The notes beneath the pieces were generated by a model. The model was given only the letters and a program-made list of their open reading frames with translations, searched no databases and had not been told where the DNA came from. From Chrysophaeum taylorii (taxonomy: Eukaryota; Sar; Pelagophyceae; Pelagomonadales; Pelagomonadaceae), in contig JAQMWT010000166.1 of assembly GCA_029834535.1 (NCBI GenBank), forward strand, positions 113,448-177,447: a DNA stretch of 64,000 nucleotides. The letters run 5' to 3'. The position numbers were made by a program, and so were the translations under genes. The first letter of the stretch is position 1. Each line of letters opens with the position of its first letter. Below are positions 25,308-47,952 of the stretch, piece after piece.

Positions 25308-25348
25308 TCGTTGAGCGGTTGTTGTGTCGGTTATTTATTTATTACACT

Positions 25349-28300
25349 ATGAACGGCGCTACTACTACAATTGCGAAGCGCGGCCAGAGCCAGAGCCAGC
25401 CCCCGCCCTGCAAGCGGAACGTCGAGCAGCGCGCCAACGACATCCTGGCCATGGCGCGCGCGCTCGTGCACCGCGGCGAGAAGCCCCTGCGTCGCAACAA
25501 GACCTCTCCTCGCCGCTTCCAAGGCGCCGGCAGGTCAGTCGACGAGTGCCGGGCCCAGGCGCACGTGGCCCTGGCCTCCCTCAAGCGCCACGACTGGAGC
25601 TCCAAGACGATGCGCGAGGTCCTGTCGGACCGAGGATGCGACCCCGAGATAGAGACGCCCGTGGTCGAGGGGGGGCTCCTCGACCTCACGTCGAACGACG
25701 CGTTCGACCGCCGCGACGACCGCTTCTCGGGGCTGCTCGCCTTTGGCGAGTCCGGCATGACGAGGCTCGAGGAACTTGTGGAGGCGGCGATGGCCGCGTC
25801 GGAGCGAGCCGCCGCCGAGCGGCGGCCATCGAGATGCGCGAGCATTCTGACGGCTCGCGGCCTCGTCCACGTCGCTTGCGACGTCGTCTCGCGCGCGAGC
25901 GCGACGCTGAGCGTGAGCGCCGAACGATCGGTCGTGCTGAGAGCCGCGAGCGACGGCGACACCCGCTTCGTCGGGATGGTCGTCGCCGACGCCACCGACG
26001 CCGCCGTGCCCGCGCCGGACGGACCGACCAGACAATTTCTCGCCGAGTACGGCGACTTTCCGGTCTACCTGGTTACCCGCGACCTTCAGGCAAAGCGTGT
26101 CTCGACGCACGAGCTCTTTCCATTGAGGCCGCCGCCGCCTTGGACGTCGTCATCGCCCAGCAGCCCTCCTCCGAGGAGTCCTTCTTCTTCTTCTCCTCCT
26201 CCGACGAAGAGGAGGAGGAAAAAGAGCAGCCCCGAGGAGTGGACGGTCGCCGACGTCGGCGCGTGGCTCGAGGCGGACGTCGGACTTCCCGAGTACGTGT
26301 CGATCTTCGGCAGGGCCAAGGTCAACGGCGCCTTGCTCCTCAAGCTCGAATCCCGCGACCTCGAGGACACCCTCGAGGTCAAGCACGCGCTGCACCGCCG
26401 CAAGATCCTCGCCGCGATCGAGGACGTGGTCGAGACTGACTACGAGCTCGCGTGCGACGAGAGCGACATCGACGAATTCGTCAACGGCCTCGACAAGGAC
26501 AGGGTGCGCGCCGTCGCGAGACTCAAGGTCGCCTTTGACGAACACGCGCGCGTTCTTCGCGATGATGATGAAGATGGCCCCCGGCTCCTCGACGCCGACG
26601 GACTCGAGCGCGCTCTCGTTCGACTCGGTCGCAACGTCGACGCGCCTCGCGTCAAGGACTGGCTCGTCCACGACGGCCGTCGGCTCGCGTTTCTCGACTT
26701 CGTCGACGTCTACGTCGACCTCTTCTCCCGGGAGGATCCCGACCTCAAAATGCGCGATCACAAGGCCAAGGCCCTCTCCCAGCGCGTCAGGCTCCTCGCT
26801 AACGGTCACGTCCATCTCGCCGACGAAAAAATCAACAAACGCCAGGATGATGAGGAGAAGGAATATTATTCGTCGGAGGACGACGAGACGAATCGCCGCC
26901 GCCGTCGCGCGAAGAAGGCAGCGCGCGCGGCCGACGAAACCTTAGGGTCCGTGCGGCGGCTTGCCGAGCTCAAGCAGACCTTTGATCGCTTCGCGATCGC
27001 CGACCTCGTCACGGGTGCCGAGGCCGTCCAAGCCCTGACCGAACTCGGCTCGACCCTCCCGCGCAAAGTCGTCTCGGCGTACCTCCGAGAGCGCGGCTTT
27101 TACGGGCTCCAGCGCGACATGAGCTTCTTTGAATTTCTTCGCGCTTTTGCAGCTTTGGAGCTCGAAGACCGGGCGCAGGTTGCCGCGCTCAGGACGGCGC
27201 AACGCAGAGCTAGGGCGATGGCCTGGTCGAGCGACGACGACGACGACGACGTCGTCAACTCGGACGAATCAGATTCAGTCGACCGCCGCATCTCGCGCGC
27301 CACGAGCAAGCCCTACACCATCACCTCGATGCGCCGCGGGCACCGCCGTCGCTTTCGGACCCCTCCAAGGCGAACGGTCGATTCGTCGGACGACTCGCCG
27401 CGCCGCGCAAAGTCGACGTCTCCGCGTCACTGCAGCAGCAGCCGAAAACGCAAAACATCTCCCGACGACTTTAAGGAGGGCGACCTGATCGAGGCGCGCT
27501 ACCACGGAAAAGACAAGTGGTTCCCGGGGATTGTCCGGCGCGCGAGGGCCGACAACACCTACGACGTCGAATACGACGACGGCGACAAGGAAATGGGCGT
27601 CGACGCGGACGTGGTGAGAAAGCGACGTCGCCGTTCCCCCCGTCTGCGCGCGGGGGACCGCGTCGACGCGAGGTATCGTGGCAAATCTAAGGCGTACGCG
27701 GGACGAATCACGAGGGACCGCGGCGACGGCACCTACGACATTGACTACGATGACGGCGAGAAGGAAAAGCGCGTTCGAGAAGAGCTAATCACCCTCAACC
27801 ACTCCTCCGACTCGGACGCAACAGCAGCAGACCACAAGGATCGCGACAGAAAGCAGCGGCTTCTCGTCGTAGGGGACAAGGTCGAAGCGCGGTACCGCGG
27901 GCGGTCAAAGTACTACCCGGCTCGAATATCGCGCGTCCACGCCGATGGCACCTACGACCTCGACTACGATGACGGCGAGAAGGAAAAGTGCGTCGATGCC
28001 ACAACGGTGAAAGCACTCGCTGGCGGGTCTGCGAGAAGCCCAAAAAAAATCGCCAACGGCGACGACTATTTTGTCCAGGGCGACAGAGTCAAAGCGCGGT
28101 TTCGTGGACGCGAAAGGTACTATCCTGGTCGAATCGCCCGAGACCGCGGCGACGGGACGTACGACGTCCGCTACGACGACGGGGAGAAGGAAACGCGAGT
28201 GCGTGCCGAGCTCATCCGTGGTCTCGTCGACAAGGAGCTCGCCGAGGATGACGGCGGCGGCATGAGTGTCGGGGACAAAGTCGAAGCGCGATACAAGGGC

Positions 28301-31300
28301 AAAGACAGATATTACCCGGGTGTTATTGACCGCGTTCACGCGGATGGCACTTACGATATAACGTACGACGACGGCGACAAAGAGAAGCGCGTAGACAGCA
28401 AGCTCGTCCGCCCGGCGGTGTCGTCGAGTCGCTCGTCGTCGCGGCATTCGCCGTCATCTTCGAGACACGGGGGCTTCCGTGTGGGCGACAAGATTGAGGC
28501 GAGGTATCGTGGGCGCTCGAAGTACTATCCCGGCGCCATTGCTCGTGTTCACGCCGATGGGACGTATGACGTCGACTACGACGACGGCGAAAAAGAGGAC
28601 CGAATACGAGAGGGACACATCAGGATCCTCGATGTGCCGCGCTCTGCACGAGGGGGCCGGCTTAGGGAAGGAGATCGCGTCGAGGCGAGGTATCGCGGCC
28701 GCTCCAAAGCCTATCCTGGCCGCATTGCACGCGACAGAGACGACGGCACGTACGACGTCGACTACGATGACGGAGAGAAAGAGACGCGGGTGCGAGAGGA
28801 GCTCATAACCAAGCTCTCCTCCTCCGAAGAAGGACCGCGTTCAGCGCAACGCGGGCGCCTGCGAGAAGGCGACCGAGTCGAGGCAAGGTATCGCGGTCGC
28901 TCCAAGGCCTATCCTGGGCGCATCGCTCGCGACCGCGGCGACGGCACCTACGACGTCGACTATGACGATGGTGAAAAAGAGACGAATGTCCGTGAAGAGC
29001 TTATCACGATGCTCAGCTGTGATCGCCGTGACAGCTTCGACGATCACCCCCGCGACGGAAAGTTCAACGTGGGAGACAAGGTCGACGCCAAGTATAGAGG
29101 TCGATCCAAGTTTTATCCAGGCCGCATTGCCCGTGTTCGTGCTGACGGCACCTACGATATCGAATACGACGACGGTGAGAAGGAGAGTCGGTTGCTCGGA
29201 GAGTACATCAAGCTCATCGACGGGTCATTGAGTGCTCGAGGCCGAAACAAAATGCGGGAGGGCGCCAAAGTCGAAGCCCGCTATCGAGGGCGATCAAAAT
29301 TCTATCCTGGGCGCATCGCTCGCGACCGTGGCGATGGTACGTTTGATATCGACTACGACGATGGAGAGAAGGAAACGCGCGTATCGGAGGAGCTAATCAA
29401 ATTGTTGCCTGGTTCGAGTCCGCGCTCGCCGCGCGGCCGGCTGCGAGAAGGTGACCGCGTCGAGGCGAGGTACCGTGGACGATCCAAGGTCTACCCAGGT
29501 CGCATAGCGCGCGACTGTGGCGATGGGACGTACGACATCGACTATGATGATGGCGAGAAAGAAACACGCGTGCGACAAGAGCTTATTACAAAGCTCGACA
29601 TTGACCGAAGGGATAGCATCGACGATGATGACCGTCGCGATTCAAAGTTCAACGTGGGCGACCCGATCGATGCCAAGTACAGGGGACGATCGAAATACTA
29701 TCCCGGGCGCATCTCCCGTGTGCACGCTGATGGCACGTACGATGTCGACTACGATGATGGGGAGAAGGAGAGCCGCGTGACGTTAAATTACATCAAGCGC
29801 AGGGACAATATCAAGAGCCCTCGCGGTAGGAAACTCGTCGAAGGTGATAAGATCGAGGCGCGTTACCGTGGACGATCCAAGTTCTATCCTGGGCGCATCG
29901 CTCGTGACCGTGGCGATGGTACTTTTGATGTCGACTACGACGATGGAGAGAAGGAAACGCGCGTGTCCGAAGACCTTATCAGGCTGCGCCCTGGTTCGAG
30001 TCCGCGCTCGCCGCGCGGCCGGCTGCGAGAAGGCGACCGCGTCGAGGCAAGGTACCGTGGACGATCCAAGGTCTACCCAGGTCGCATAGCGCGCGACCGT
30101 GGCGATGGGACGTACGACATCGACTATGACGATGGCGAGAAAGAAACACGCGTGCGACAAGAGCTCATTTCAAAGCTCGAAAATGAGCGAAGGGATAGCA
30201 TCGACGATGATGACCGTCGCGATTCAAAGTTCAACGTGGGCGACCCGATCGATGCCAAGTACAGGGGACGATCGAAATACTATCCCGGGCGCATCTCCCG
30301 TGTGCACGCTGATGGCACGTACGATGTCGACTACGATGATGGGGAGAAGGAGAGCCGCGTGACGTTAAATTACATCAAGCGCAGGGACAATATCAAGAGC
30401 CCTCGCGGTAGGAAACTCGTCGAAGGTGATAAGATCGAGGCGCGTTACCGTGGACGATCCAAGTTCTATCCTGGGCGCATCGCTCGTGACCGTGGCGATG
30501 GTACTTTTGATGTCGACTACGACGATGGAGAGAAGGAAACGCGCGTGTCCGAAGACCTTATCAGGCTGCGCCCTGGTTCGAGTCCGCGCTCGCCGCGCGG
30601 CCGGCTGCGAGAAGGCGACCGCGTCGAGGCAAGGTACCGTGGACGATCCAAGGTCTACCCAGGTCGCATAGCGCGCGACCGTGGCGATGGGACGTACGAC
30701 ATCGACTATGATGATGGCGAGAAAGAAACACGCGTGCGACAAGAGCTTATTACAAAGCTCGACATTGACCGAAGGGATAGCATCGACGATGATGACCGTC
30801 GCGATTCAAAGTTCAACGTGGGCGACCCGATCGATGCCAAGTACAGGGGACGATCGAAATACTACCCCGGGCACATCGCCCGTGTGCACGCTGATGGCAC
30901 GTACGATGTCGACTACGATGATGGGGAGAAGGAGAGCCGCGTGCCGCTAAATTACATCAAGCGCAGGGACAATATCAAGAGCCCTCGCGGTAGGAAACTC
31001 GTCGAAGGTGATAAGATCGAGGCGCGTTACGGTGGACGATCCAAGTTCTATCCTGGGCGCATCGCTCGTGACCGTGGCGATGGTACTTTTGATGTCGACT
31101 ACGACGATGGAGAGAAGGAAACGCGCGTGTCCGAAGACCTTATCAGGCTGCGCCCTGGTTCGAGTCCGCGCTCGCCTCGCGGCCGGCTGCGAGAAGGTGA
31201 CCGCGTCGAGGCGAGGTACCGTGGACGATCCAAGGTCTACCCAGGTCGCATAGCGCGAGACTGTGGCGATGGGACGTACGACATCGACTATGATGATGGC

Positions 31301-34300
31301 GAGAAAGAAACACGCGTGCGACAAGAGCTTATTACAAAGCTCGACATTGACCGAAGGGATAGCATCGACGATGATGACCGTCGCGATTCAAAGTTCAACG
31401 TGGGCGACCCGATCGATGCCAAGTACAGGGGACGATCGAAATACTACCCCGGGCACATCGCCCGTGTGCACGCTGATGGCACGTACGATGTCGACTACGA
31501 TGATGGGGAGAAGGAGAGCCGCGTGCCGCTAAATTACATCAAGCGCAGGGACAATATCAAGAGCCCTCGCGGTAGGAAACTCGTCGAAGGTGATAAGATC
31601 GAGGCGCGTTACGGTGGACGATCCAAGTTCTATCCTGGGCGCATCGCTCGTGACCGTGGCGACGGTAGTTTTGATGTCGACTACGACGATGGAGAGAAGG
31701 AAACGCGCGTGTCCGAAGACCTTATCAGGCTGCGCCCTGGTTCGAGTCCGCGCTCGCCTCGCGGCCGGCTGCGAGAAGGTGACCGCGTCGAGGCGAGGTA
31801 CCGTGGACGATCCAAGGTCTACCCAGGTCGCATAGCGCGCGACCGTGGCGATGGGACGTACGACATCGACTATGACGATGGCGAGAAAGAAACACGCGTG
31901 CGACAAGAGCTCATTACAAAGCTCGACAATGAGCGAAGGGATAGCATCGACGATGATGACCGTCGCGATTCTAAGTTCAACGTGGGCGACCCGATCGATG
32001 CCAAGTACAGGGGTCGATCGAAATACTACCCCGGGCACATCGCCCGTGTGCACGCTGATGGCACGTACGATGTCGACTACGATGATGGGGAGAAGGAGAG
32101 CCGCGTGCCGTTAAATTACATCAAGCGCAGGGACAATATCAAGAGCCCTCGCGGTAGGAAACTCGTCGAAGGTGATAAGATCGAGGCGCGTTACGGTGGA
32201 CGATCCAAGTTCTATCCTGGGCGCATCGCTCGTGACCGTGGCGACGGTACTTTTGATGTCGACTACGACGATGGAGAGAAGGAAACGCGCGTGTCCGAAG
32301 ACCTTATCAGGCTGCGCCCTGGTTCGAGTCCGCGCTCGCCTCGCGGCCGGCTGCGAGAAGGTGACCGCGTCGAGGCGAGGTACCGTGGACGATCCAAGGT
32401 CTACCCAGGTCGCATAGCGCGCGACCGTGGCGATGGGACGTACGACATCGACTATGACGATGGCGAGAAAGAAACACGCGTGCGACAAGAGCTCATTACA
32501 AAGCTTCACGATGACCGTAGAAAAAGGCTCGACGATGACCACCGCGACAGAAAGTTTAACGTGGGCGACAACGTTGAGGCACGCTATCGCGGGCGGTCCA
32601 AGTACTACCCTGGCCGTGTTGCCCGCGTGCATGCTGATGGCACGTACGATATCGATTATGACGACGGTGTGAAGGAGATACGGGTCCTTGGAGAGCACAT
32701 TAAGCTCAATGACTTTCCTCTTCGGAATCCTCGAGACAAGAAATTGCGCGAGGGTGCAAAAGTAGAGGCTCGGTATCGAGGTCGATCCAAGTTCTATCCT
32801 GGCCGCATCGCTCGTGATCGCGATGATGGCACGTTCGATATCGACTACGATGATGGAGAAAAGGAAACGCGTGTATCGGAGGACCTCATCAGGTTGCTGC
32901 CTAGTTCGAGCGCGCGTGGCCGATTACGAGAGGGTGACCGCGTCGAGGCGAGATTTCGCGGCCGGTCGAAATTTTACCCTGGTCGCATTGCGCGTGACAG
33001 AGGCGATGGCACCTACGACGTAGACTACGACGATGGTGAGAAAGAGACACGCGTGCACGAAGAGCTCATCACAAAGCTCGATAGCGATCGCCGTGATAGT
33101 CTCGATATTGTCCGTCACAATGGCAAATTCAATGTGGGCGACGCGATCGATGCCAGGTACAAGGGTCGATCGAAATACTATCCCGGACGCATCGCCCGCG
33201 TGAACGCTGATGGAACATACGATGTCGATTACGACGACGGAGAGAAAGAAAGTCGGGTGCTCGGAGACGACATCAAGCTCAGAGATGGACCAGGAAGCGC
33301 ACGTGGCAGAAAACTACGTGAGGGTGCCAAGGTTGAGGCACGCTATCGAGGAAGGCAAAAATACTACCCGGGACGAATTTCTCGTGATCGTGGCGATGGC
33401 ACGTTTGACATCGACTACGACGATGGCGAGAAGGAGACCAGGGTCGAAGAAGAGTGCATTAGACTCTTCACTGACGATGACCAACCTCTATCTGCACGCG
33501 CGAATAGAAAGCTCGTCGAAGGCGACAAGATCGAGGCACGATACCGCGGACGATCCAAGTATTATCCTGGTCGGATATCGCGCGATCGCGGCGATGGTAC
33601 TTTCGACGTTGAATACGACGATGGCGAGAACGAGACGCGCGTATCCGAGGACCTCATCAAACTGCTGCCTGGTTTGAGCCCGCGCTTATTGCGTGGCCGG
33701 TTGCGAGAAGGTGACCGTGTTGAGGCGAGATATCGCGGCCGGTCCAAGGCCTACCCTGGTCGCGTTGTTCGCGATCGCGGTGACGGGACGTACGACGTCG
33801 ACTACGACGACGGTGAGAAGGAGACCCGCTTACGCGAAGACCTGATCACAAAGCTCGACAACAACGATGATCGTCGTGATAGCCTCCTTGACGACGACGA
33901 CCACCACCACCAAAAGTTCAAGGTCGGCGATAAGATCGAGGCGCGCTATCGCGGACGATCGAAATTCTATCCTGGACGCATTGCTCGCGTGCATGCTGAT
34001 GGCACGTACGACGTCGATTACGACGATGGTGAGAGAGAGAGTCGAGTGCTCGGAGAATACGTAAAGCATCCGGGACCACGAAGTCCGCGTCTCCGGAAAC
34101 TCATCGAAGGTGACCGTGTGGAGGCGCGTTATAGGGGTCGATCAAAATTTTATCATGGACGTATTGCGCGTGATCGTGGTGATGGCACGTACGACATCGA
34201 CTACGACGACGGTGAGAAGGAAGCTCGCGTAAGTGAAGACCTAATTACGAAGCTCGAGATTGAACAACAACGCCGCGACAGCCTTGACGACGATCGCGAC

Positions 34301-35290
34301 AACGAAAAAAGGTTCAACGTTGGAGACAAGATTGAAGCTAAATACGGGGGGCGATCGAGATACTATCCCGGCCGCGTTACCCGCGTGCACGCTGACGGCA
34401 CGTACGACGTCGATTACGACGACGGCGAGAAGGAGAGTCGAGTACTCGGAGAGCACATCAAGCTCAGCGATGGTCCAAAACGGAGTGCTCGCGGGAAGAA
34501 AATTCGTGAAGGCGCCAAAATTGAGGCTCGCTATCGAGGGCGATCAAAATACTATCCGGGACGCATCGTTCGAGACCGCGGCGACGGCACGTTCGACATT
34601 GCCTACGACGACGGCGAGAAGGAAACCAACGTCGAAGAAGAGTTCGTCCTTCTAGTCGATGATGATGATGATGATGATGATGATGATCGGCCTCGATCTC
34701 CGAGGACGAGGAATGCACGATCGCCCGATCGCTCGGGCGAACTACGCGTTGGCGACGCGGTCGAGGCGCGGTATCGAGGCAAGAATACGTTTTACCCTGG
34801 CCGCGTTGCCCGCGTCCACGCCGACGGGACGTACGACATCGACTACGACGACGGCGACAAGGAGAGTCGTATGTCCCGCAAGGACATCACGTTTCCAAGG
34901 CGCGGGTTGAGCCAAGGTGCGAAGATCGAGGCGCGGTATCAAGGACGGTCGAGGTACTATCCGGGGCGGATCTCGCGGGAACGAAGCGATGGGACCTACG
35001 ACGTCGATTATGACGATGGCGAGAAGGAGACGAGCGTGCGCGAGGAGCACATTCGGCTTAGTCGCGACGAGCCGCCGCTTGGCTCGCCGACGACGTTCCG
35101 GCGCGGGGAGAACGTCGAGGCGAGGTTCCGAAGGCGGTCGAGGTACGAGCGGGGTGTGATCACCAAGGTCAACCGCGACAGCACCTACGACGTCGAGTAC
35201 GACGACGGTGAGCGGGAATTCGGGGTGCGGGACTACCTCATACGATCGCGCGAACGAGAGAGACCCCCCTCAATTTCAACCTTAGACTGA
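25349..35290 (+). CDS. Giant SAM / EF-hand-like / 40x Tudor-repeat protein
   Basis: A 3313-residue single-exon protein. Residues about 297-361 form a SAM domain (WTVADVGAWLEADVGLPEYV ... VKHALHRRKILAAI). Two EF-hand-like helical blocks follow at about 394-465 and 538-606 (FFEFLRAFAALE), without good Ca2+ loops. From residue about 709 to the end I count 40 copies of a roughly 42-residue Tudor/Agenet-like module with consensus GDKVEARYRGRSKYYPGRI, a short loop, then DGTYDVDYDDGEKETRV. Modules are separated by charged Ser/Arg/Asp linkers. Tudor modules bind methylated Lys or Arg or scaffold complexes; which applies here is unknown. Modules 12-26 repeat as triplets. The ATG at 25349 is the first in frame. 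A chromatin or RNP scaffold role is inference. Confidence 0.85.
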   Translation: MNGATTTIAKRGQSQSQPPPCKRNVEQRANDILAMARALVHRGEKPLRRNKTSPRRFQGAGRSVDECRAQAHVALASLKRHDWSSKTMREVLSDRGCDPEIETPVVEGGLLDLTSNDAFDRRDDRFSGLLAFGESGMTRLEELVEAAMAASERAAAERRPSRCASILTARGLVHVACDVVSRASATLSVSAERSVVLRAASDGDTRFVGMVVADATDAAVPAPDGPTRQFLAEYGDFPVYLVTRDLQAKRVSTHELFPLRPPPPWTSSSPSSPPPRSPSSSSPPPTKRRRKKSSPEEWTVADVGAWLEADVGLPEYVSIFGRAKVNGALLLKLESRDLEDTLEVKHALHRRKILAAIEDVVETDYELACDESDIDEFVNGLDKDRVRAVARLKVAFDEHARVLRDDDEDGPRLLDADGLERALVRLGRNVDAPRVKDWLVHDGRRLAFLDFVDVYVDLFSREDPDLKMRDHKAKALSQRVRLLANGHVHLADEKINKRQDDEEKEYYSSEDDETNRRRRRAKKAARAADETLGSVRRLAELKQTFDRFAIADLVTGAEAVQALTELGSTLPRKVVSAYLRERGFYGLQRDMSFFEFLRAFAALELEDRAQVAALRTAQRRARAMAWSSDDDDDDVVNSDESDSVDRRISRATSKPYTITSMRRGHRRRFRTPPRRTVDSSDDSPRRAKSTSPRHCSSSRKRKTSPDDFKEGDLIEARYHGKDKWFPGIVRRARADNTYDVEYDDGDKEMGVDADVVRKRRRRSPRLRAGDRVDARYRGKSKAYAGRITRDRGDGTYDIDYDDGEKEKRVREELITLNHSSDSDATAADHKDRDRKQRLLVVGDKVEARYRGRSKYYPARISRVHADGTYDLDYDDGEKEKCVDATTVKALAGGSARSPKKIANGDDYFVQGDRVKARFRGRERYYPGRIARDRGDGTYDVRYDDGEKETRVRAELIRGLVDKELAEDDGGGMSVGDKVEARYKGKDRYYPGVIDRVHADGTYDITYDDGDKEKRVDSKLVRPAVSSSRSSSRHSPSSSRHGGFRVGDKIEARYRGRSKYYPGAIARVHADGTYDVDYDDGEKEDRIREGHIRILDVPRSARGGRLREGDRVEARYRGRSKAYPGRIARDRDDGTYDVDYDDGEKETRVREELITKLSSSEEGPRSAQRGRLREGDRVEARYRGRSKAYPGRIARDRGDGTYDVDYDDGEKETNVREELITMLSCDRRDSFDDHPRDGKFNVGDKVDAKYRGRSKFYPGRIARVRADGTYDIEYDDGEKESRLLGEYIKLIDGSLSARGRNKMREGAKVEARYRGRSKFYPGRIARDRGDGTFDIDYDDGEKETRVSEELIKLLPGSSPRSPRGRLREGDRVEARYRGRSKVYPGRIARDCGDGTYDIDYDDGEKETRVRQELITKLDIDRRDSIDDDDRRDSKFNVGDPIDAKYRGRSKYYPGRISRVHADGTYDVDYDDGEKESRVTLNYIKRRDNIKSPRGRKLVEGDKIEARYRGRSKFYPGRIARDRGDGTFDVDYDDGEKETRVSEDLIRLRPGSSPRSPRGRLREGDRVEARYRGRSKVYPGRIARDRGDGTYDIDYDDGEKETRVRQELISKLENERRDSIDDDDRRDSKFNVGDPIDAKYRGRSKYYPGRISRVHADGTYDVDYDDGEKESRVTLNYIKRRDNIKSPRGRKLVEGDKIEARYRGRSKFYPGRIARDRGDGTFDVDYDDGEKETRVSEDLIRLRPGSSPRSPRGRLREGDRVEARYRGRSKVYPGRIARDRGDGTYDIDYDDGEKETRVRQELITKLDIDRRDSIDDDDRRDSKFNVGDPIDAKYRGRSKYYPGHIARVHADGTYDVDYDDGEKESRVPLNYIKRRDNIKSPRGRKLVEGDKIEARYGGRSKFYPGRIARDRGDGTFDVDYDDGEKETRVSEDLIRLRPGSSPRSPRGRLREGDRVEARYRGRSKVYPGRIARDCGDGTYDIDYDDGEKETRVRQELITKLDIDRRDSIDDDDRRDSKFNVGDPIDAKYRGRSKYYPGHIARVHADGTYDVDYDDGEKESRVPLNYIKRRDNIKSPRGRKLVEGDKIEARYGGRSKFYPGRIARDRGDGSFDVDYDDGEKETRVSEDLIRLRPGSSPRSPRGRLREGDRVEARYRGRSKVYPGRIARDRGDGTYDIDYDDGEKETRVRQELITKLDNERRDSIDDDDRRDSKFNVGDPIDAKYRGRSKYYPGHIARVHADGTYDVDYDDGEKESRVPLNYIKRRDNIKSPRGRKLVEGDKIEARYGGRSKFYPGRIARDRGDGTFDVDYDDGEKETRVSEDLIRLRPGSSPRSPRGRLREGDRVEARYRGRSKVYPGRIARDRGDGTYDIDYDDGEKETRVRQELITKLHDDRRKRLDDDHRDRKFNVGDNVEARYRGRSKYYPGRVARVHADGTYDIDYDDGVKEIRVLGEHIKLNDFPLRNPRDKKLREGAKVEARYRGRSKFYPGRIARDRDDGTFDIDYDDGEKETRVSEDLIRLLPSSSARGRLREGDRVEARFRGRSKFYPGRIARDRGDGTYDVDYDDGEKETRVHEELITKLDSDRRDSLDIVRHNGKFNVGDAIDARYKGRSKYYPGRIARVNADGTYDVDYDDGEKESRVLGDDIKLRDGPGSARGRKLREGAKVEARYRGRQKYYPGRISRDRGDGTFDIDYDDGEKETRVEEECIRLFTDDDQPLSARANRKLVEGDKIEARYRGRSKYYPGRISRDRGDGTFDVEYDDGENETRVSEDLIKLLPGLSPRLLRGRLREGDRVEARYRGRSKAYPGRVVRDRGDGTYDVDYDDGEKETRLREDLITKLDNNDDRRDSLLDDDDHHHQKFKVGDKIEARYRGRSKFYPGRIARVHADGTYDVDYDDGERESRVLGEYVKHPGPRSPRLRKLIEGDRVEARYRGRSKFYHGRIARDRGDGTYDIDYDDGEKEARVSEDLITKLEIEQQRRDSLDDDRDNEKRFNVGDKIEAKYGGRSRYYPGRVTRVHADGTYDVDYDDGEKESRVLGEHIKLSDGPKRSARGKKIREGAKIEARYRGRSKYYPGRIVRDRGDGTFDIAYDDGEKETNVEEEFVLLVDDDDDDDDDDRPRSPRTRNARSPDRSGELRVGDAVEARYRGKNTFYPGRVARVHADGTYDIDYDDGDKESRMSRKDITFPRRGLSQGAKIEARYQGRSRYYPGRISRERSDGTYDVDYDDGEKETSVREEHIRLSRDEPPLGSPTTFRRGENVEARFRRRSRYERGVITKVNRDSTYDVEYDDGEREFGVRDYLIRSRERERPPSISTLD
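29654..32563 (+). repeat. 582-bp higher-order tandem repeat, five copies, in the Tudor gene
   Basis: Units starting at 29654, 30236, 30818, 31400 and 31982 are nearly identical, 582 bp (194 codons) long, and keep the frame. Each encodes three Tudor-like modules (starting VGDPIDAKY, EGDKIEARY and EGDRVEARY) plus linkers. A sixth position at 32564 begins a diverged module. Copies 1-2 share GRISRVH and EARYRG; copies 3-5 share GHIARVH and EARYGG, so the duplication history can be read. Confidence 0.95.
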
Positions 35291-35382
35291 TGATAAAAGA
35301 CATCAACAACATAGGAAATAGGGTCGAGTATAATATTGTTATTATAACGCCGCCCCAAGAAGAAAAAAAAGAAAATTGCGTT

Positions 35383-37017
35383 ATGAGCGAGTGCGTGATA
35401 TGTCTTCGAAGCACGGAGGATGTCGTTGTGTCGTCGTGCGGAATCCTTCGGCACGGCGCGTGCCGCGGTTGCATGCGCGCCGCGCTGTTGTCTCCGTTGG
35501 AGCGGAACCCCTTGCGTAAACGAGACGGGTCGATGGCATGCGTCGCCGCAAACTGCGACGGGCAATGGCATCTCCGCGAGCTGCTGGAGATGGTCGAATC
35601 GAAGAGCGACAAGGCTCATGTTCTCGGGATCGTAGCAAAGCGGCGGGAGACGACGGCGACGCGATTGTCCGAGCGCGAACGTCTTCTCGCGGCGGTGGAC
35701 TTTTTGAAGAAGCCCGAGATCAAGGACCGACCTCGCCAAGCAGTCGACGAATATTTGATGAGACAGGGAATCGCAGAGGATGTCGTCGCCGAGGCACGCC
35801 GGCTCGTGGACGAAGACATCGTTCCCTTGGCGGGAGGGCAGTCGCACGCGCCGGCGTTCGCGTCGGTCGAGGTCGATTCCGCCGCCGCGGAGGAGATAGA
35901 CGCGATCGAGGCCGAGCTCATCGCCGTCGACGACCTCGCCAGCGTGCTGCGAAAAATCGAAAGCACGAAAAAAAAAGCGACCAAGAGGGTGTTGCGGAAC
36001 AAGGTCGGCGAGCGAGCGAAGTTGTGCGCGGCGGCGCTCGACTGCCAGAGCTGGGCGTGCTTGGACGGGTTCGCCGGACCCGACCTCGTCGACGGCGTCT
36101 TGCGCGACGTCGCGTGCCTCGAACCGCTCTACGCGCCCTCGGAGATATGGGTGGGGACTTCCGCGACCCTGGGCGCGCAGGTCGTCGTCCCGGAAGTCCG
36201 GGGAGACAAGGTGTTGTGGATGTGCGGCGCGCATCCCGGCCGGGAGCGCGGGGGCGTCGAGCCCTGCGACGACGAGGTCAAGCGGGGGGTTTCAGCGGGG
36301 GTCTCGAGACTCTCAAAGTCGCAGGAGGCGCGGTTCCAGCATCTCCGCGACCTCATGCGCTCCGTCGACGGCTTTGTTCTTGGCGAGCTCGTCCCGAGGC
36401 TTGGCGTTTTATCCGACGTCTCGTCGCGCTCGGACGCCATGCTTGCCGTCTATCCTGGCGACGGGGCGCGCTTCCAGGCGCACGTCGACAACACCTCCCT
36501 TGACGGCCGGAAACTCACGACCGTTCTGTACTTGAACAAGGGCTGGACGCGCGAGAAGGGCGGTCAACTAAGGATTCACGCGACGTCGAAAGCGCACTAC
36601 GACGTCGAGCCGAGGGCGGGCCGGCTCGCTCTGTTTTACGCCGACCGCATCAAGCACGAGGTTCGCCCGACGTGGCATCAGGACCGGGTGGCTCTTACGC
36701 TCTGGTACTACGGCGACAACGAGCGCCGCGACGCCGTGGACAGAGCCAAGGTCGACGCGGCGACCGAGGTTGCCGTCAACGCGACCGACGCCGAGCGCCG
36801 AAGGGCCCAGGCTTATGCCCGCGACCTTTGCGACCCCGCGCACCACGCCTCGGTCGAAGACCTCGCCGACCGCGCCGAGTACCTCCCGCGCAACTCACAG
36901 AAAATTCTGGCCGCGATGGCGGGCGTCCCGGACACTCACTTTGCCGTCGCCGTCAGGAGAATGACCCCGGACGCTCTGAACGGCCTCCGCACGCGCTTCG
37001 CCACCATGGGGGTCTAA
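35383..37017 (+). CDS. RING-like finger plus HIF-type prolyl 4-hydroxylase fusion
   Basis: A 544-residue protein. The N-terminus has a RING-like cluster (CVICLRSTEDVVVSSCGILRH, with CRGC following). A helical middle and a C-terminal 2-oxoglutarate/Fe(II) dioxygenase domain follow. In the latter, His367-x-Asp369 (AHVDN), His425 (IKHEV) and Arg435 (QDRVALT) form the iron and 2-oxoglutarate sites. The flanking text (AVYPGDGARFQAHVDN, TTVLYLNKGW, GGQLRI, RLALFYADR) matches EGLN/PHD-type prolyl hydroxylases. Such enzymes hydroxylate proline on signalling or ribosomal proteins and depend on O2. A C-terminal helical tail of about 95 residues follows. The ATG at 35383 is preferred over 35290, which overlaps the preceding stop. 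Linking the RING-like finger to the oxygenase suggests coupled hydroxylation and ubiquitination (inference). Confidence 0.82.
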   Translation: MSECVICLRSTEDVVVSSCGILRHGACRGCMRAALLSPLERNPLRKRDGSMACVAANCDGQWHLRELLEMVESKSDKAHVLGIVAKRRETTATRLSERERLLAAVDFLKKPEIKDRPRQAVDEYLMRQGIAEDVVAEARRLVDEDIVPLAGGQSHAPAFASVEVDSAAAEEIDAIEAELIAVDDLASVLRKIESTKKKATKRVLRNKVGERAKLCAAALDCQSWACLDGFAGPDLVDGVLRDVACLEPLYAPSEIWVGTSATLGAQVVVPEVRGDKVLWMCGAHPGRERGGVEPCDDEVKRGVSAGVSRLSKSQEARFQHLRDLMRSVDGFVLGELVPRLGVLSDVSSRSDAMLAVYPGDGARFQAHVDNTSLDGRKLTTVLYLNKGWTREKGGQLRIHATSKAHYDVEPRAGRLALFYADRIKHEVRPTWHQDRVALTLWYYGDNERRDAVDRAKVDAATEVAVNATDAERRRAQAYARDLCDPAHHASVEDLADRAEYLPRNSQKILAAMAGVPDTHFAVAVRRMTPDALNGLRTRFATMGV

Positions 37018-39689: not shown

Positions 39690-42600
39690 TCATATTAAAT
39701 CATCGTTCGGAAACTCTTCCAGCCAGTCTCTAATTTTGGCGCAGGTGTCGAGTTCCTCGAGGCCGTCGGCGGTGCGGTACCTTTTGGGATAGATGGTGGC
39801 GCCCTCGTCGCAGGAAAAGCGATCGAATTCGGACCTGTGGACATCCTTGCAGTCAAGGAGCTGCCAGCAGCACGAGCCCGAGTGGTCGTTGTTATTGTAG
39901 GAGGATAAGGCCCAGAAGGGCCCGTTCAGAAAGTATTTCGGCGGGTAGGTGAGCTGGAACCAGGCGACGGAAAAGACGACAAAGAGGACGAGGACGAAGA
40001 GGGCGAGGGGCCGAACGAGAAAGCGATGCGCGATCGACTCTGCGACCGGCCTGAGGAAGCAGAGTCCAAAGAGAAAACCGCCGATCCAGCCGCCGACGTG
40101 GGCCGAGTACGAGGTATCGGCGTCCTTGTAGATAAAGACGTAGACCATGACGTCGAACAACGGCACGAGAACGCAGAGCGACCCGCGGATGAGCAGGCTG
40201 ATATCCTCAGCCATGGCGCGCCAGTTAATACAGCAGTCGGCCGTGTGCAGACCAATCAGCGTGTAGACGCCTCCCGAGGCCCCGACGACCGTCTTGTGGA
40301 TGTCGGAAAAGGCGCACGTGAGCGAACCGAGCGCGACGCCGAGCTGGTACACCAAGAACGAGATGAGATGTCCGTGGACGATCTCGACGGGGATCCCGAA
40401 CACGAGCTGGACGAATATGTTGGAGACGATGTGCGTGTAGCCAATGTGTGCGAATTGGTAGGTCCACAGCCGCCACACCTGGGGCCGCCGGTCCTTGCAC
40501 TGGGGAAAGTTCGAGATGAGCTGGTAGTGGAGCCACTTTGGTCCTACGACCGGCGACCCCGCCTTGACCCGGCCCCAGCCGCCCGGTTTCCGCTTGCTGT
40601 AGAATACGAACGACGCGATCTGGAGGCCCGAGAGCAGGACGAGAGCGAGCGGCCAGTATTGTTGCTGATTCGCGTACTTGACGACGATGACGTCGCGCGG
40701 CACGCTCACAAACAAGGTGCCCTTTGGGAACTTTCGCTTCGACGTCGTCGCCGGCCAGTCGTAGTCGTGCGGGCCGTCGAGATACTGGAGTAAGTACCGC
40801 GTCGCGTAGCCGGTGCCGTGCTCGCGTCGCAATCGCATCGCACGCTTGACCTTGGCGCGGCAGTACTGGCCCGGCTTGAACGGCGTGTCCTCGTCGTCGT
40901 CGTCGTCGTCGTCGCCGTTCGGCGGCGAGTTCCCTCCCGACATGAGGCTCTGGAACACGCCGCGCTTGGCGAGGCCCCCCGAGTCGACGTTGTTGTCTCG
41001 AGTCGCTCCGTTCTTCTTGCGGCCGGTCAGCATCACCTCGCCGAGCGGCGTTCGGACGGTGTACGTGTCGGCGGCGTACATCACCTCGACGACGACGCCG
41101 GAATTGAGGGTTTGCCACCACGCCCGCTTCGTGTCTCGGCGAAACATGAGGGCGCTCGCAGCCGTCCGCAGACGACGCGACCGCACGCGGCCTTGGCCAT
41201 CCGACGAAAGGCTCGCTAACAGCGACGACGACCCCGGAATGGCGAGGTTGACGTGCCCCGCTCGTCGGCCGCCGCCGCCGCTGCTCGAGGTCGCGGGCGG
41301 CGCGGCGCGTCTCGCGGCCCGGTCATCGACGCCGGACATGGCCGTCACGAGCGCCGATCGCGTGACGCACTGGTGCGTGATGGCGATCAGGAGGCCCTCG
41401 GCGAGCGAGTGCGCGAGCGCCGGGCAGTCGGTCGAGAGGTCGAGCGTCAACCGCCGGCCGCCCGCGCCTCGTCGGTACGCGACGCTCAAGGACGAGGCAA
41501 GCGTCGCCGATCCCACGGCATACTTGGAAGGCATCGGCATGTCGACGCCTTCCATGTCGTCGAAGTAGATGCGCATCTCTCCGAGACCGTAGGCGGGAAT
41601 CACGTCGATACCGGCCAAGTCGCCGACGCCCGAGATGACCACGGGCTTGGGCTTGGCCGGCATGCCCGTGTCTTCTCGCAGAGCGTGCTGCTCGGCGCCC
41701 ACGCCCTGGCTCAACAACCGATTAAGCTGCGCGAGCTTCCGCCTCTCGCTCGGGCGGAGCTGGTTCAGCGACGACGACGACAAGAGCACCAGGTCGCGGC
41801 GCGAATCGGGCGAGTCGTGGACCTTTTCCTCGGGCCCGCCAGACGACGACGACGACGGCGGCGGCAACGCGGCGCCGCCCGCGGGCGCAGCAGCAGCCGG
41901 CGGCTTGGTGGACGTGACGAAGAGGCGACTGTGTGCGTTAAAGAGGTCGGGGCTCACCAAGGTGAGCGCGACGACGCCGCGCTTCGAGGTCTTGGCTTTC
42001 CTCGCGGCGGCGTCGGCGGCGACGCCAAACGCGAGGAGCGTGTAGTGCGAGACGTGGTGGTTGTCCATGAGGACGAGGACGTCTTCGACGCGGGCGGCCG
42101 TGGTCTTTGAGGTGATGGCATTGACGACGAGCACGCCCGAGCGCTGCGTTAGCTCGAGGCCCCACGTCTCCGTCGCGCACGGCGGCTTGCGCGCGATCGA
42201 GTTTTTTATCATCCACGAGCCCGATCGTCGCTTCGAAGAGTCGTCGTCGTCGTCGTCGTCGTCTTCTTCTTCTTCTTCTGCCGAGAGAGCGATGGTGTAC
42301 AAGACGTCCTCGTTGGTGTCGGTGCGCGCGAAGACGACGCGAACGCTCGGCTTTTCGGCGACGGCTCGGACGCACTTGTCCATCAAGTAGTGCACGCCGC
42401 GCGCGTCGGGGGGCGGGACGACCAGTTTGCCGTCGATCGCGACGAGGGTGTCGCCGGGATGCACGCCCTTGGCGCTCGCGCCCCCCGAGGCGCTGCGGAC
42501 GGCGATGACGGCGCGCTTCCTGTCGGTCGTGAGCGCGCCGCGAAGCTGGACTTTTCCGACGACCGAATCGCCGCCGGCGTCGTTACGACTCATCGTCAAC

Positions 42601-43043
42601 ACGAGAGTCGCGTCGTTGGGCCTCGTGCCGCCACTCCTGGGCGTCAAGACCTCCTCAAAAGAAATCGCGCAGTCGAGCTCGACGAGCCCGAGGCCGCGCG
42701 TATTCTGGCGGAGGTGGCGCGGCGGCGGGAGCGCGGGCGCGGGGGGGGGAAGCGCGAGGAGTCGGTGGTTGCGCGAGGTGGCCTTGCCTGCGACGAAGGT
42801 GAGGCGGAGCGGGCGACGCGTGGTGTTGCGCAGCATTCCCAGCACGTCGTCGAGGCCGCGGTGCTCGACGTTGGTCCCATTGAGACCCGTCAGCTGGTCA
42901 CCCTCCTGGACCCCCCCCGTCCGGGCCGCGCCAGTAACGCTCACGACGGCGATGATTTCCTCGCCCGACTCGAGGGTCGTGGTGGTCAAACCGAGTCCGA
43001 GCTCGCGGCTGCGGAACGTTACGTCGAACTGGGCGGTGTCCAT
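39690..43043 (-). CDS. PDZ-repeat protein fused to a rhomboid intramembrane protease
   Basis: A 1117-residue protein from the ATG at 43043. The N-terminus carries PDZ-like modules: IAVVSVTGAARTGGVQEGDQ with LTGLNG (about 25-95), a second with GVHPGDTLVAIDGKL (about 180-245), and a weaker third around GVLVVNAITS (about 300-350). A long linker follows with a few ordered parts (VVVEVMYAADTYTVRTPLGE). The C-terminal third is a rhomboid fold with about seven hydrophobic segments: catalytic Ser923 in VVGASGGVYTLIG, His982 in AHVGGWIGG, and RLWTYQFAHIGYTHIVSNIF in the first loop region. The catalytic dyad is intact, so activity is expected. The PDZ modules presumably select substrates or partners, as PDZ does in HtrA and site-2 proteases; in rhomboids this fusion is unusual. 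Confidence 0.85.
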   Translation of the reverse strand: MDTAQFDVTFRSRELGLGLTTTTLESGEEIIAVVSVTGAARTGGVQEGDQLTGLNGTNVEHRGLDDVLGMLRNTTRRPLRLTFVAGKATSRNHRLLALPPPAPALPPPRHLRQNTRGLGLVELDCAISFEEVLTPRSGGTRPNDATLVLTMSRNDAGGDSVVGKVQLRGALTTDRKRAVIAVRSASGGASAKGVHPGDTLVAIDGKLVVPPPDARGVHYLMDKCVRAVAEKPSVRVVFARTDTNEDVLYTIALSAEEEEEDDDDDDDDSSKRRSGSWMIKNSIARKPPCATETWGLELTQRSGVLVVNAITSKTTAARVEDVLVLMDNHHVSHYTLLAFGVAADAAARKAKTSKRGVVALTLVSPDLFNAHSRLFVTSTKPPAAAAPAGGAALPPPSSSSSGGPEEKVHDSPDSRRDLVLLSSSSLNQLRPSERRKLAQLNRLLSQGVGAEQHALREDTGMPAKPKPVVISGVGDLAGIDVIPAYGLGEMRIYFDDMEGVDMPMPSKYAVGSATLASSLSVAYRRGAGGRRLTLDLSTDCPALAHSLAEGLLIAITHQCVTRSALVTAMSGVDDRAARRAAPPATSSSGGGGRRAGHVNLAIPGSSSLLASLSSDGQGRVRSRRLRTAASALMFRRDTKRAWWQTLNSGVVVEVMYAADTYTVRTPLGEVMLTGRKKNGATRDNNVDSGGLAKRGVFQSLMSGGNSPPNGDDDDDDDEDTPFKPGQYCRAKVKRAMRLRREHGTGYATRYLLQYLDGPHDYDWPATTSKRKFPKGTLFVSVPRDVIVVKYANQQQYWPLALVLLSGLQIASFVFYSKRKPGGWGRVKAGSPVVGPKWLHYQLISNFPQCKDRRPQVWRLWTYQFAHIGYTHIVSNIFVQLVFGIPVEIVHGHLISFLVYQLGVALGSLTCAFSDIHKTVVGASGGVYTLIGLHTADCCINWRAMAEDISLLIRGSLCVLVPLFDVMVYVFIYKDADTSYSAHVGGWIGGFLFGLCFLRPVAESIAHRFLVRPLALFVLVLFVVFSVAWFQLTYPPKYFLNGPFWALSSYNNNDHSGSCCWQLLDCKDVHRSEFDRFSCDEGATIYPKRYRTADGLEELDTCAKIRDWLEEFPNDDLI

Positions 43044-43240
43044 CGGGCTTATTATTATTATTAGTGAGTTAGCTAGCAAAAACGACGACAGACAGATTAA
43101 GGTACACTATACTCTACGCGTATGATGTACAAATCAAGAATAGAATGGAAAATTTTGCGCGGCGAAAAATTCAAGGAGGAAACCCTACTACTACTAGCCG
43201 TTTGTTTTTATTCAACGGACAATCTTTACTAGTGAGATAG

Positions 43241-45179: not shown

Positions 45180-45834
45180 TCTCGAGACTTCACTCATCGT
45201 CGACGTATAATTTTTTAATTAATGCGACGTCGCAACGTGCCCCTCTTCTCGACGAACGGAACGGCTCCCCCGACGTGACGCACCTTGGTTTTTGCTGCCG
45301 CCGCACCATTCGCTGCACTTTCTTTTTGCAACACGCACGAACGAACGAACGAACGAACGACTGACTTTTGTTGTTGTGTCTTTTTATTTCCCCACAACGT
45401 GCTGACGACAGACATCCAAGCCCCATCATGCATGCGCCTCTCTATCCTTAATCTAATTGAAAAATATGCGCCTCTCTATCCTTAATCTAATTGAAAAATT
45501 ATAATATTCGCCGGACGGTGGTGGGAATGAACATCTCCTCTGGTCCTTTATTCCTCGAGGACGGACTACTAGTAGTAGCTCTTCGAAGATTTTACAACTA
45601 GCTTTCAAGATGACTGACTGACTGACTGACTGCCGTCGGCTCTCCAGGTGACGCGGGTTCTACCTAGTAATGCAAGAAGACGCATCAAGTCAGAGCCGCC
45701 CCCCGATATATATTTCGCAAGGACGCACGCGCCCCCCATTTCCTTTCGACGAGAGAGAGAGAGAGAGAGAGGGGCCCCGCCATCGTCCAGCGTCCACAAC
45801 TCAGTGCCAGGACAGGAGTTCTTTCGTCGTCGAG
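45180..45834. other. Intergenic region rich in short tandem repeats
   Basis: Holds a (CGAA)n tract at about 45338-45361, a perfect 34-bp tandem duplication (45432-45499), (TGAC)n at about 45610-45632 and (GAGA)n at about 45751-45770. No gene is seen. Confidence 0.6.
45432..45499 (+). repeat. 34-bp perfect tandem duplication
   Basis: Two adjacent copies of a 34-bp unit beginning ATGCGCCTCTCTATCC and ending TTGAAAAAT, at 45432 and 45466. They are identical in the bases read. Confidence 0.95.
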
Positions 45835-47952
45835 TCAGTCGTCGAGGTGATCGAGGAGATCGGTGATAGCCGCGCGACCTCTGTCGAGATCGAGCGTGGG
45901 ACCGAGGTTGGCGCGTTGGCGCCTGGCCTGTTCTCGCGCTTCCTTGCGCCTGAGCTCCTCCTCGCGACGAGTCTCCCGCTCGTCTTTGAGCTTCTGTCGC
46001 TCGGCGGCGGCGTCTGCGGCGCGGCGCCTTTCGTACTCCTCGAGGTGGTGCTGGCGGCGTTGGTCTTCGAGTTTGCGGGCGTCCTCCAGTTGCTGGGCCT
46101 TGCGTCGTTTGTTTGTGACTTCGCGGTCGCGTTTAGCCCTGGCCTCGGAACGAGCCGCGAGCCACAGAGGGTCTTCCTCCTCGGGCGGCGTTTCGACCGA
46201 ATCTGGTCCAAGATCGGACCACTTGGAAAGATCGATGGTGGGGTCCTCGTCGGGGGGGTCGGGGATGATAATAATATCGCGGATCGACACGTCCTCGAAG
46301 GGGTCTGCCGGAACATCCGCCCGTCGAACCGGCTGGTCCTCCTTCTTCCTCGGAGGGTCGACCTTGGACACCTTCTGGACTACGAGAGTCTCCATCATCA
46401 GAGGCGGCTTGTGGTGGTGGTGGTGATTTCGAGCTTTGTTCTCCTCTCTTTCGGGGTTTATTTTCTTCTTCTTGGCAGGAGGTGGTTCGTCCTCGACGTC
46501 GACCAGCGTCGTCCGTCGTTTATCCTCCGTTTTTTGCGGAGAAGAATTTTCTTTCTTTTTTTTCTTCGTCGTCGTCGACCCAGAAAGAAGTTTTATGGGG
46601 GGAGCCGCCGCCGCCGCCGCCCCGAGCTTGGCGAGGGTCTGGTCTGCGAGCCGCAAGTAGTGCTTGGCAGCGTCGTGCACGGCCAACTTTGGATTCTTGT
46701 TGTAGAGCATCGCGTTCCTAAACACGAGTCTCAGATCTTTCCCGAAAGCGTCGACCGTCGGATACGAGTCCATGCGCTTCTCGATTGTCCCGAGGTCCAT
46801 GGGCTCCTTGATGATCTCGTTGTAATCGGGCAACCGCATCGCCACCGGATCGACCGGGTGTAAAAAGAAATAAGCGTACGGTTTTTCCTTGAGCGTCGCC
46901 ACCAGAGCTCGCCATTTCGAGCGGTCCACGGGATCATCATCAGCCGCCTCCTCTTTGACCGGAGGAGGAGGGAACACCTCGCGATACAACTTTTCGAAGG
47001 CCTTGCCAAACTTCAACGCCTGCTGATGGATTTCGTGGTTCGCCGGGTTGAACTTTGTCGCGTTCGCGACCACGAGCCTGGCGTCGCTCAACAGTTCTTC
47101 GGGCGAGTAAGACCCCCCAACCTTCGCCCACATCTGGTCCAGCGACATCGGCTGCTTGATGACGTCGAGGTATTCGGGGATCCCGAGCGCGACGGGGTCT
47201 ACGGCCTGGCGAAAGTACAACGCCTCGTCCAAGTCGTAAGCCGCCTCGAGCACGCGCTCGACTTTTTTTTTCGGCGCCGGGTCCCCCGACGCCAGGGACT
47301 CGAACATCTCGCTCAACTCCTTCGCCGCCTCCCAGATCGGCGTCCCCTTTGGATTAAACCGCATCGCGTTCGAAAAAACGAGCCGCACGTCGCCCGCGAA
47401 CAGAGAAAATCTCCCGTAAGCGCCCGCGTCGAGCTTCTCCCGGACGGTGCCAAAGTCCATCGGTTTTTTTATAATCTTGTGGTACTCGGGAATATTCAGC
47501 GCGACGGCGTCCACGGGCTCGTTGAAGTGGTACGCCTCGGGCCGCGCGCCCAGCTTGGTGAGAAGCCGCCGACAAACGTTCGCGTCGGCTTCGTTCTTCT
47601 TCGGGCCAGCCTTCTTCTTCCCGCCGCCCGAAAACGTCCACTTCTTCTCGAACCATTCAATCAGCTCCGTCGCGTCGCGCCGCACCGGACTCTCGGGCTC
47701 CGTGTTGAACCTGATCGCGTTCTCGAACACCAGCCGTACGTCATCGGCAAACATTTCGCGAGATTCTCCGCCGTACGCACCCTTCTCCAACTTCTCGCCG
47801 ATCGTCCTCAGGTCCATCGGCTTCCGGATCACCTGCAGATACTGCGGCACGCCGTCCAACACGGGGTCCACGGGCCGCAGAAACCACCGCGCCTGACGCC
47901 TTTCCCGGAGCTGCCGCAATAGGCTTGACAACCCGCCATCCCGCGGCGGCAT
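45835..47952 (-). CDS. Four-bromodomain protein
   Basis: A 705-residue protein from ATG 47952. Four bromodomains lie in tandem at about 8-103, 125-220, 233-325 and 346-443. Each has the PVDxV...PxYxxxIxxPM(D/S)L core (e.g. GVPQYLQVIRKPMDL, NIPEYHKIIKKPMDF) and the acetyl-lysine-binding Asn (Asn83, Asn200, Asn302, Asn418). A Lys-rich linker and acidic stretches follow, then from about 600 a highly charged Glu/Arg coiled coil (RRQHHLEEYERRRAADAAAE) and a short C-terminal helix. There is no kinase, acetyltransferase or ET domain. It is probably a nuclear acetyl-histone reader or scaffold. The gene is followed on the 5' side by GAT and TTA microsatellites. The architecture resembles polybromo-type proteins without BAH or HMG domains. 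Confidence 0.88.
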   Translation of the reverse strand: MPPRDGGLSSLLRQLRERRQARWFLRPVDPVLDGVPQYLQVIRKPMDLRTIGEKLEKGAYGGESREMFADDVRLVFENAIRFNTEPESPVRRDATELIEWFEKKWTFSGGGKKKAGPKKNEADANVCRRLLTKLGARPEAYHFNEPVDAVALNIPEYHKIIKKPMDFGTVREKLDAGAYGRFSLFAGDVRLVFSNAMRFNPKGTPIWEAAKELSEMFESLASGDPAPKKKVERVLEAAYDLDEALYFRQAVDPVALGIPEYLDVIKQPMSLDQMWAKVGGSYSPEELLSDARLVVANATKFNPANHEIHQQALKFGKAFEKLYREVFPPPPVKEEAADDDPVDRSKWRALVATLKEKPYAYFFLHPVDPVAMRLPDYNEIIKEPMDLGTIEKRMDSYPTVDAFGKDLRLVFRNAMLYNKNPKLAVHDAAKHYLRLADQTLAKLGAAAAAAPPIKLLSGSTTTKKKKKENSSPQKTEDKRRTTLVDVEDEPPPAKKKKINPEREENKARNHHHHHKPPLMMETLVVQKVSKVDPPRKKEDQPVRRADVPADPFEDVSIRDIIIIPDPPDEDPTIDLSKWSDLGPDSVETPPEEEDPLWLAARSEARAKRDREVTNKRRKAQQLEDARKLEDQRRQHHLEEYERRRAADAAAERQKLKDERETRREEELRRKEAREQARRQRANLGPTLDLDRGRAAITDLLDHLDD

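Follow-up and report, generated by a model that had tools for sequence, protein, structure and literature searches.

A 3313-residue protein of Chrysophaeum taylorii with 40 Tudor modules, a candidate multivalent methyl-lysine reader

Results

A single open frame encodes 40 Tudor modules

We analyzed a 64,000-nucleotide stretch of Chrysophaeum taylorii DNA (positions 113,448 to 177,447 of contig JAQMWT010000166.1, forward strand, assembly GCA_029834535.1; hereafter the window) and find that it carries one gene for a 3313-residue protein dominated by a tandem array of 40 Tudor modules. The translation of positions 25349-35290 on the plus strand has no internal stop and the frame measures 3475 codons from stop to stop, whereas 100 mononucleotide shuffles of these bases gave stop-free runs of at most 318 codons on one strand. 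From the N-terminus, the protein consists of a cytidine-deaminase-like domain, a SAM domain, a region without an assigned family, and the array. The features of the gene are as follows.

25349..35290, plus strand: single open frame, 3313 residues, computed mass 381 kDa, isoelectric point 8.8
25769..26122, plus strand: cytidine-deaminase-like domain, residues 141-258 (phmmer hit to 1jtk at E 4.1e-9 with the domain as query, 2.6e-7 with the whole protein)
26231..26428, plus strand: SAM domain, residues 295-360 (Pfam SAM_1 4.1e-13, SAM_2 4.7e-12)
26498..27283, plus strand: region called EF-hand-like in the original prediction, residues 384-645, no family assigned
27470..35257, plus strand: array of 40 Tudor modules, about residues 708-3303, with linkers of 5-30 residues (core taken as 50 residues)
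29441..32350, plus strand: five consecutive three-module units (194 residues, 582 nt each), DNA identity 96.7-99.0%
30605..31159, plus strand: triad of modules 17-19, structure predicted with AlphaFold2 (AF2)
35096..35257, plus strand: module 40, the sole broken cage, with Glu at the second aromatic position

Two methods give the same number of modules. A pattern scan marked 42 places, two of which were dropped as false (residue 304, within the SAM domain, and residue 2639, within a module), leaving 40, and the Pfam family Tudor_5 agrees independently with 40 stretches. Tudor_3 and 53-BP1_Tudor also match (29 stretches each), as does SGF29_Tudor (13 stretches; 346 bits, a total summed over repeats). 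Tudor_5 reaches 777 bits against a curated cut-off of 31, and in many cases single modules exceed 31 bits. Because bits sum over repeats, four unrelated models (Gp18_dom_I, LPD30, DUF7141 and DUF1543) also pass their cut-offs, with no stretches of their own. A profile built from the 40 modules matches the Tudor domains of PHF20, 53BP1, Sgf29 and KDM4 among 31 PDB sequences at E<=0.1, a few of which (filamin-C and Sas-4, for example) look like chance. The original prediction of a 3313-residue protein with 40 Tudor-like modules is thus borne out, and the consensus it gave for the module agrees with our column counts.

The AF2 model of the triad consists of three Tudor barrels with disordered linkers between them, and both the model and the fold searches support the five-stranded barrel. 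Its best Foldseek match is the triple Tudor of SETDB1 (2.9e-7). By sequence and by predicted fold, the modules are Tudor domains.

By sequence, 39 of 40 modules retain a pocket of the Sgf29 type

The cage positions of the candidate binding pocket were mapped to Sgf29 by their spacing and to 53BP1 through a HMMER alignment. Core positions 11 and 18 are Tyr or Phe in 40/40 and 39/40 modules, respectively, and positions 35 and 37 are Tyr and Asp in all 40. By sequence, the complete set of residues is therefore kept in every module except module 40. The available text of PMC4589357 gives the Sgf29 cage for histone H3 di- or trimethylated at lysine 4 (H3K4me2/3) as Y238, Y245, F264 and D266, a spacing of +7, +19, +2 compared with +7, +17, +2 in the modules. 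According to the same text, Glu is tolerated in place of the cage Asp, but binding is weaker with Ala, Asn, Tyr or Phe and lost with Trp. The original prediction also proposed a multivalent reader; its Tudor identity stands, and the cage-type residues in 39 of 40 modules make the reader itself plausible.

The array grew in three-module units and is under purifying selection

Module identity is highest at a lag of three (80%, versus 65-68% at lags of 1, 2, 4 and 5), showing that the array grew in three-module units of 194 residues. The five consecutive units differ from each other at 6-19 places and share exact runs of up to 417 nt. Across the whole array, clustering at 90% DNA identity gives 27 clusters, 24 of which are single modules. 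Silent sites between modules are near saturation (median proportion differing, pS, 0.69), with little change in the amino acids (median pN 0.21); the median ratio of amino-acid-changing to silent change (dN/dS) is 0.14 over the 580 of 780 module pairs with finite dS, indicating purifying selection. Cage codons switch between synonyms across modules, which together with the saturated silent sites and low amino-acid change argues that the pocket is kept by selection in long-diverged modules.

Short, charged linkers, 39 in all, join the modules. When concatenated they contain 25 SP and 15 RRxS motifs, compared with shuffle means of 6.1 and 3.3, numbers reached in 0 of 2000 shuffles; SP occurs in 18 and RRxS in 10 of the individual linkers. 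Since the linkers are themselves repeats, this excess is not independent evidence, and we offer phosphorylation control of the linkers as a suggestion only.

The Tudor module is a stock repeat of the genome

Searches of the organism's own genome (70.8 Mb, 697 contigs) uncovered a second Tudor array on another contig (G000:C38:76000-85900, locus L009, minus strand), in which stops separate a frame of 19 modules from another of 14, 33 modules in all. The unit of this array is a single module of 61 residues, and the cage set is present at 31 of the 33 scanned places; of the remaining two, one is not a module. A third, small array keeps the set in 7 of 10, and smaller sets of modules occur on C167, C47, C480, C498 and C533. 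The Tudor module is therefore a stock repeat of this genome that has expanded at least twice independently. Relatives of SGF29 are separate genes, located on C314 and C157 (C317 carries a partial match), and scores of the module profile against them do not exceed shuffles.

Canonical histone H3 gave 18 matches in the genome. Those of full length comprise 13 at 98% and one at 95%, and a further match, at 97%, is nearly full length; the H3 tail was read in two of the matches. The slightly divergent copy (95%, the others 98%) lies on the contig of the window (G000:C166:105580-105987), roughly 7.5 kb ahead of the first position of the window.

The N-terminus combines SAM with a deaminase-like domain that is predicted to be inactive

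The SAM domain named in the original prediction is clear (SAM_1, 49.9 bits against a cut-off of 23, E 4.1e-13, residues 297-359) and is closest to those of tir-1/SARM1 and the liprins (PDB: tir-1 2.9e-8, liprin-beta-1 1.4e-7). The N-terminal part has only three other matches in the genome, all of them within the SAM domain.

The cytidine-deaminase-like domain was absent from the original prediction. At E<=1, 13 of its 18 PDB matches are cytidine deaminases, including the best 11 in a row (4.1e-9 to 0.012). No Pfam deaminase model, PF00383 and PF08211 included, picks up residues 141-258, which weighs against the similarity. In the alignment, the three zinc-binding cysteine positions are occupied by Ser, Asp and Thr while the glutamate of the AE motif is kept, and on this basis the domain is predicted to be inactive. 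An active cytidine deaminase was accordingly rejected, as the three zinc-binding Cys/His are not found in the alignment. Among the genome's own deaminases, L020, L021 and L022 retain both zinc motifs, and those that were compared with this domain show no kinship to it above shuffles.

We did not recover the EF-hand-like domains that had been assigned to residues 384-645. No Pfam EF-hand family matches the protein at E<=1, a PROSITE-like pattern finds no canonical calcium loop, and none of the 146 EF-hand_7 matches in the genome (150 of 388 candidates scored) lies on the contig of the window. Against the PDB at E<=10, the region matches only two huntingtin-interacting-protein-1 sequences (E 0.11 and 0.16). 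We reject the EF-hand reading on these grounds; the score between the two suspected lobes was reached by 4 of 100 shuffles, so a weak kinship of the lobes to each other is possible.

Neighboring genes and other features

The upstream neighbor, on the same strand, encodes a CNNM/CBS-type protein and ends at 25307. Only 41 bases (25308-25348) separate its stop from the ATG of the Tudor gene, which is tight for a nuclear genome. Directly downstream, a plus-strand frame (35290-37017) encodes a 2OG-Fe(II) oxygenase (7.6e-20) and also has a RING-type match that is weak and falls below the cut-off (0.003); translation more likely begins at the in-frame ATG at 35383. A 705-residue minus-strand frame (45835-47952), some 10 kb beyond the Tudor gene, has four bromodomain stretches (Pfam E 2.5e-71), and another minus-strand frame, of 1129 residues (39690-43079), contains both PDZ and rhomboid domains. 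Positions 45432-45499 hold a perfect two-copy tandem repeat of 34 bp.

Elsewhere in the genome, a frame near the second Tudor array (L010) encodes bZIP and PAS domains and is aureochrome-like; the available text of PMC3779222 and PMC9416419 describes aureochromes as restricted to heterokont algae or stramenopiles. There are 84 light-harvesting matches, and clusters with identical scores on G000:C88, C539, C390 and C533 suggest recent local amplification. Together, the aureochrome-like frame and the light-harvesting matches point to what is probably a photosynthetic stramenopile.

Discussion

Based on these data, we propose that the protein is a giant multivalent methyl-lysine-binding reader and scaffold, presumably nuclear and oligomerized by its SAM domain, a reading to which we give an even chance. 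From the pocket chemistry and the valency, each barrel is probably a weak binder of di- or trimethylated lysine, with histone tails as the most plausible site of the mark. The flexible charged linkers would let neighboring modules engage neighboring marks together, so that strength would come from number. The SAM domain, judging from its family, and perhaps also the zinc-less deaminase-like domain would join copies into larger assemblies; free cytidine deaminase enzymes form oligomers. Human SGF29 forms nuclear condensates according to the available text of PMC10630320 (2023), which makes the idea of a condensate reasonable, although nothing of the kind is shown for the 40-module protein.

The alternatives differ in what the barrels would hold. 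As a cytoplasmic ribonucleoprotein (RNP)-granule scaffold like Drosophila Tudor and the TDRD proteins, the protein would bind methylated arginine and not histones, and many Tudor domains per protein is a known design of germ-granule scaffolds in the available text of PMC11956945. The Tudor domains of TDRD3, SPF30 and SMN are indeed among the best structural matches of the triad, and SAM could multimerize such a protein. However, the multi-Tudor scaffolds of animals are built from extended Tudor domains, for which linkers of 5-30 residues leave no room, and methyl-arginine cages consist of four aromatics and an Asn, whereas the modules have three aromatics and an Asp; we regard a granule scaffold as improbable. 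The barrels could instead hold unmodified protein, RNA or DNA, the cage-like residues being simply residues of the fold. An array with 16.6% Arg and 14.8% Asp would suit this function, several invariant module columns are not cage residues, Foldseek with the triad also returns DSIF/Spt5 chains (KOW domains), and Sas-4 is a weak PDB match (E 0.058), probably by chance. Such a structural or nucleic-acid scaffold is nonetheless distinctly unlikely, as the four cage positions, taken jointly, have the same kinds of residue at similar distances as in methyl-lysine readers.

It is also conceivable that the array is mainly a runaway repeat, inflated by unequal crossing-over to a number of little functional meaning, or that the assembly miscounted its units. 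The five near-identical units and their long exact runs speak for this, as does the second array, which is built from a different unit and broken by stops. But the frame of the 40-module gene is open throughout, the five units can be told apart, most clusters are single modules, and dN/dS is low across saturated silent sites; we consider this explanation very unlikely.

Within the methyl-lysine reader we propose, a more specific possibility is a chromatin-spanning "ruler", in which 40 Sgf29-type pockets on flexible linkers allow one 381-kDa molecule to bridge or count runs of methylated nucleosomes, with SAM and the dead deaminase-like domain joining molecules. We think this version unlikely, but if it is true, no histone reader described so far would reach the same valency, and the combination of domains would be new. 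If the pockets bind methyl-lysine at all, the protein is a natural experiment in extreme avidity, bearing on the number of weak reader modules that can be useful to one chromatin scaffold and on whether counting can reveal how dense a mark is.

Relatives were sought by pattern scans of non-eukaryotic collections. Viral contigs gave 71 matches for the N-terminal part and 270 for the module, and contigs of GTDB genomes gave 269 for the module; no match was confirmed. Among titles and abstract openings, we found no such Tudor array and no protein in which Tudor and SAM domains occur together with a zinc-less deaminase-like one. The available text of PMC11956945, a 2025 preprint, gives eleven Tudor domains as the highest number known in one protein; the 40 modules are far above this, though that statement may overlook unannotated protist proteins.

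The protein can be compared with several characterized systems. The SETDB1 triple Tudor provides the best structural match of the triad, and Tudor_5 is the best Pfam family, although Pfam finds no methyltransferase domain in the 40-module protein. Drosophila Tudor has extended Tudor domains and other N-terminal domains, in contrast to the 40 plain modules on short linkers found here. The plant ADCP1/AGDP proteins have fewer domains, and we know of no SAM or deaminase-like part in them. They resemble our protein in their repeated Tudor/Agenet barrels, for which titles report structures with H3K9me peptides, and Agenet is also matched here by Pfam. Drosophila Tudor is similar in uniting many Tudor domains, eleven in the available text of PMC11956945, in a single scaffold protein. 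Lastly, the tandem Tudor of Sgf29, the H3K4me2/3 reader of SAGA, has the same Tyr-Tyr-(Phe/Tyr)-Asp type of cage at nearly equal spacing, and SGF29_Tudor is among the Pfam matches of the array, but Sgf29 has one tandem pair as opposed to 40 modules.
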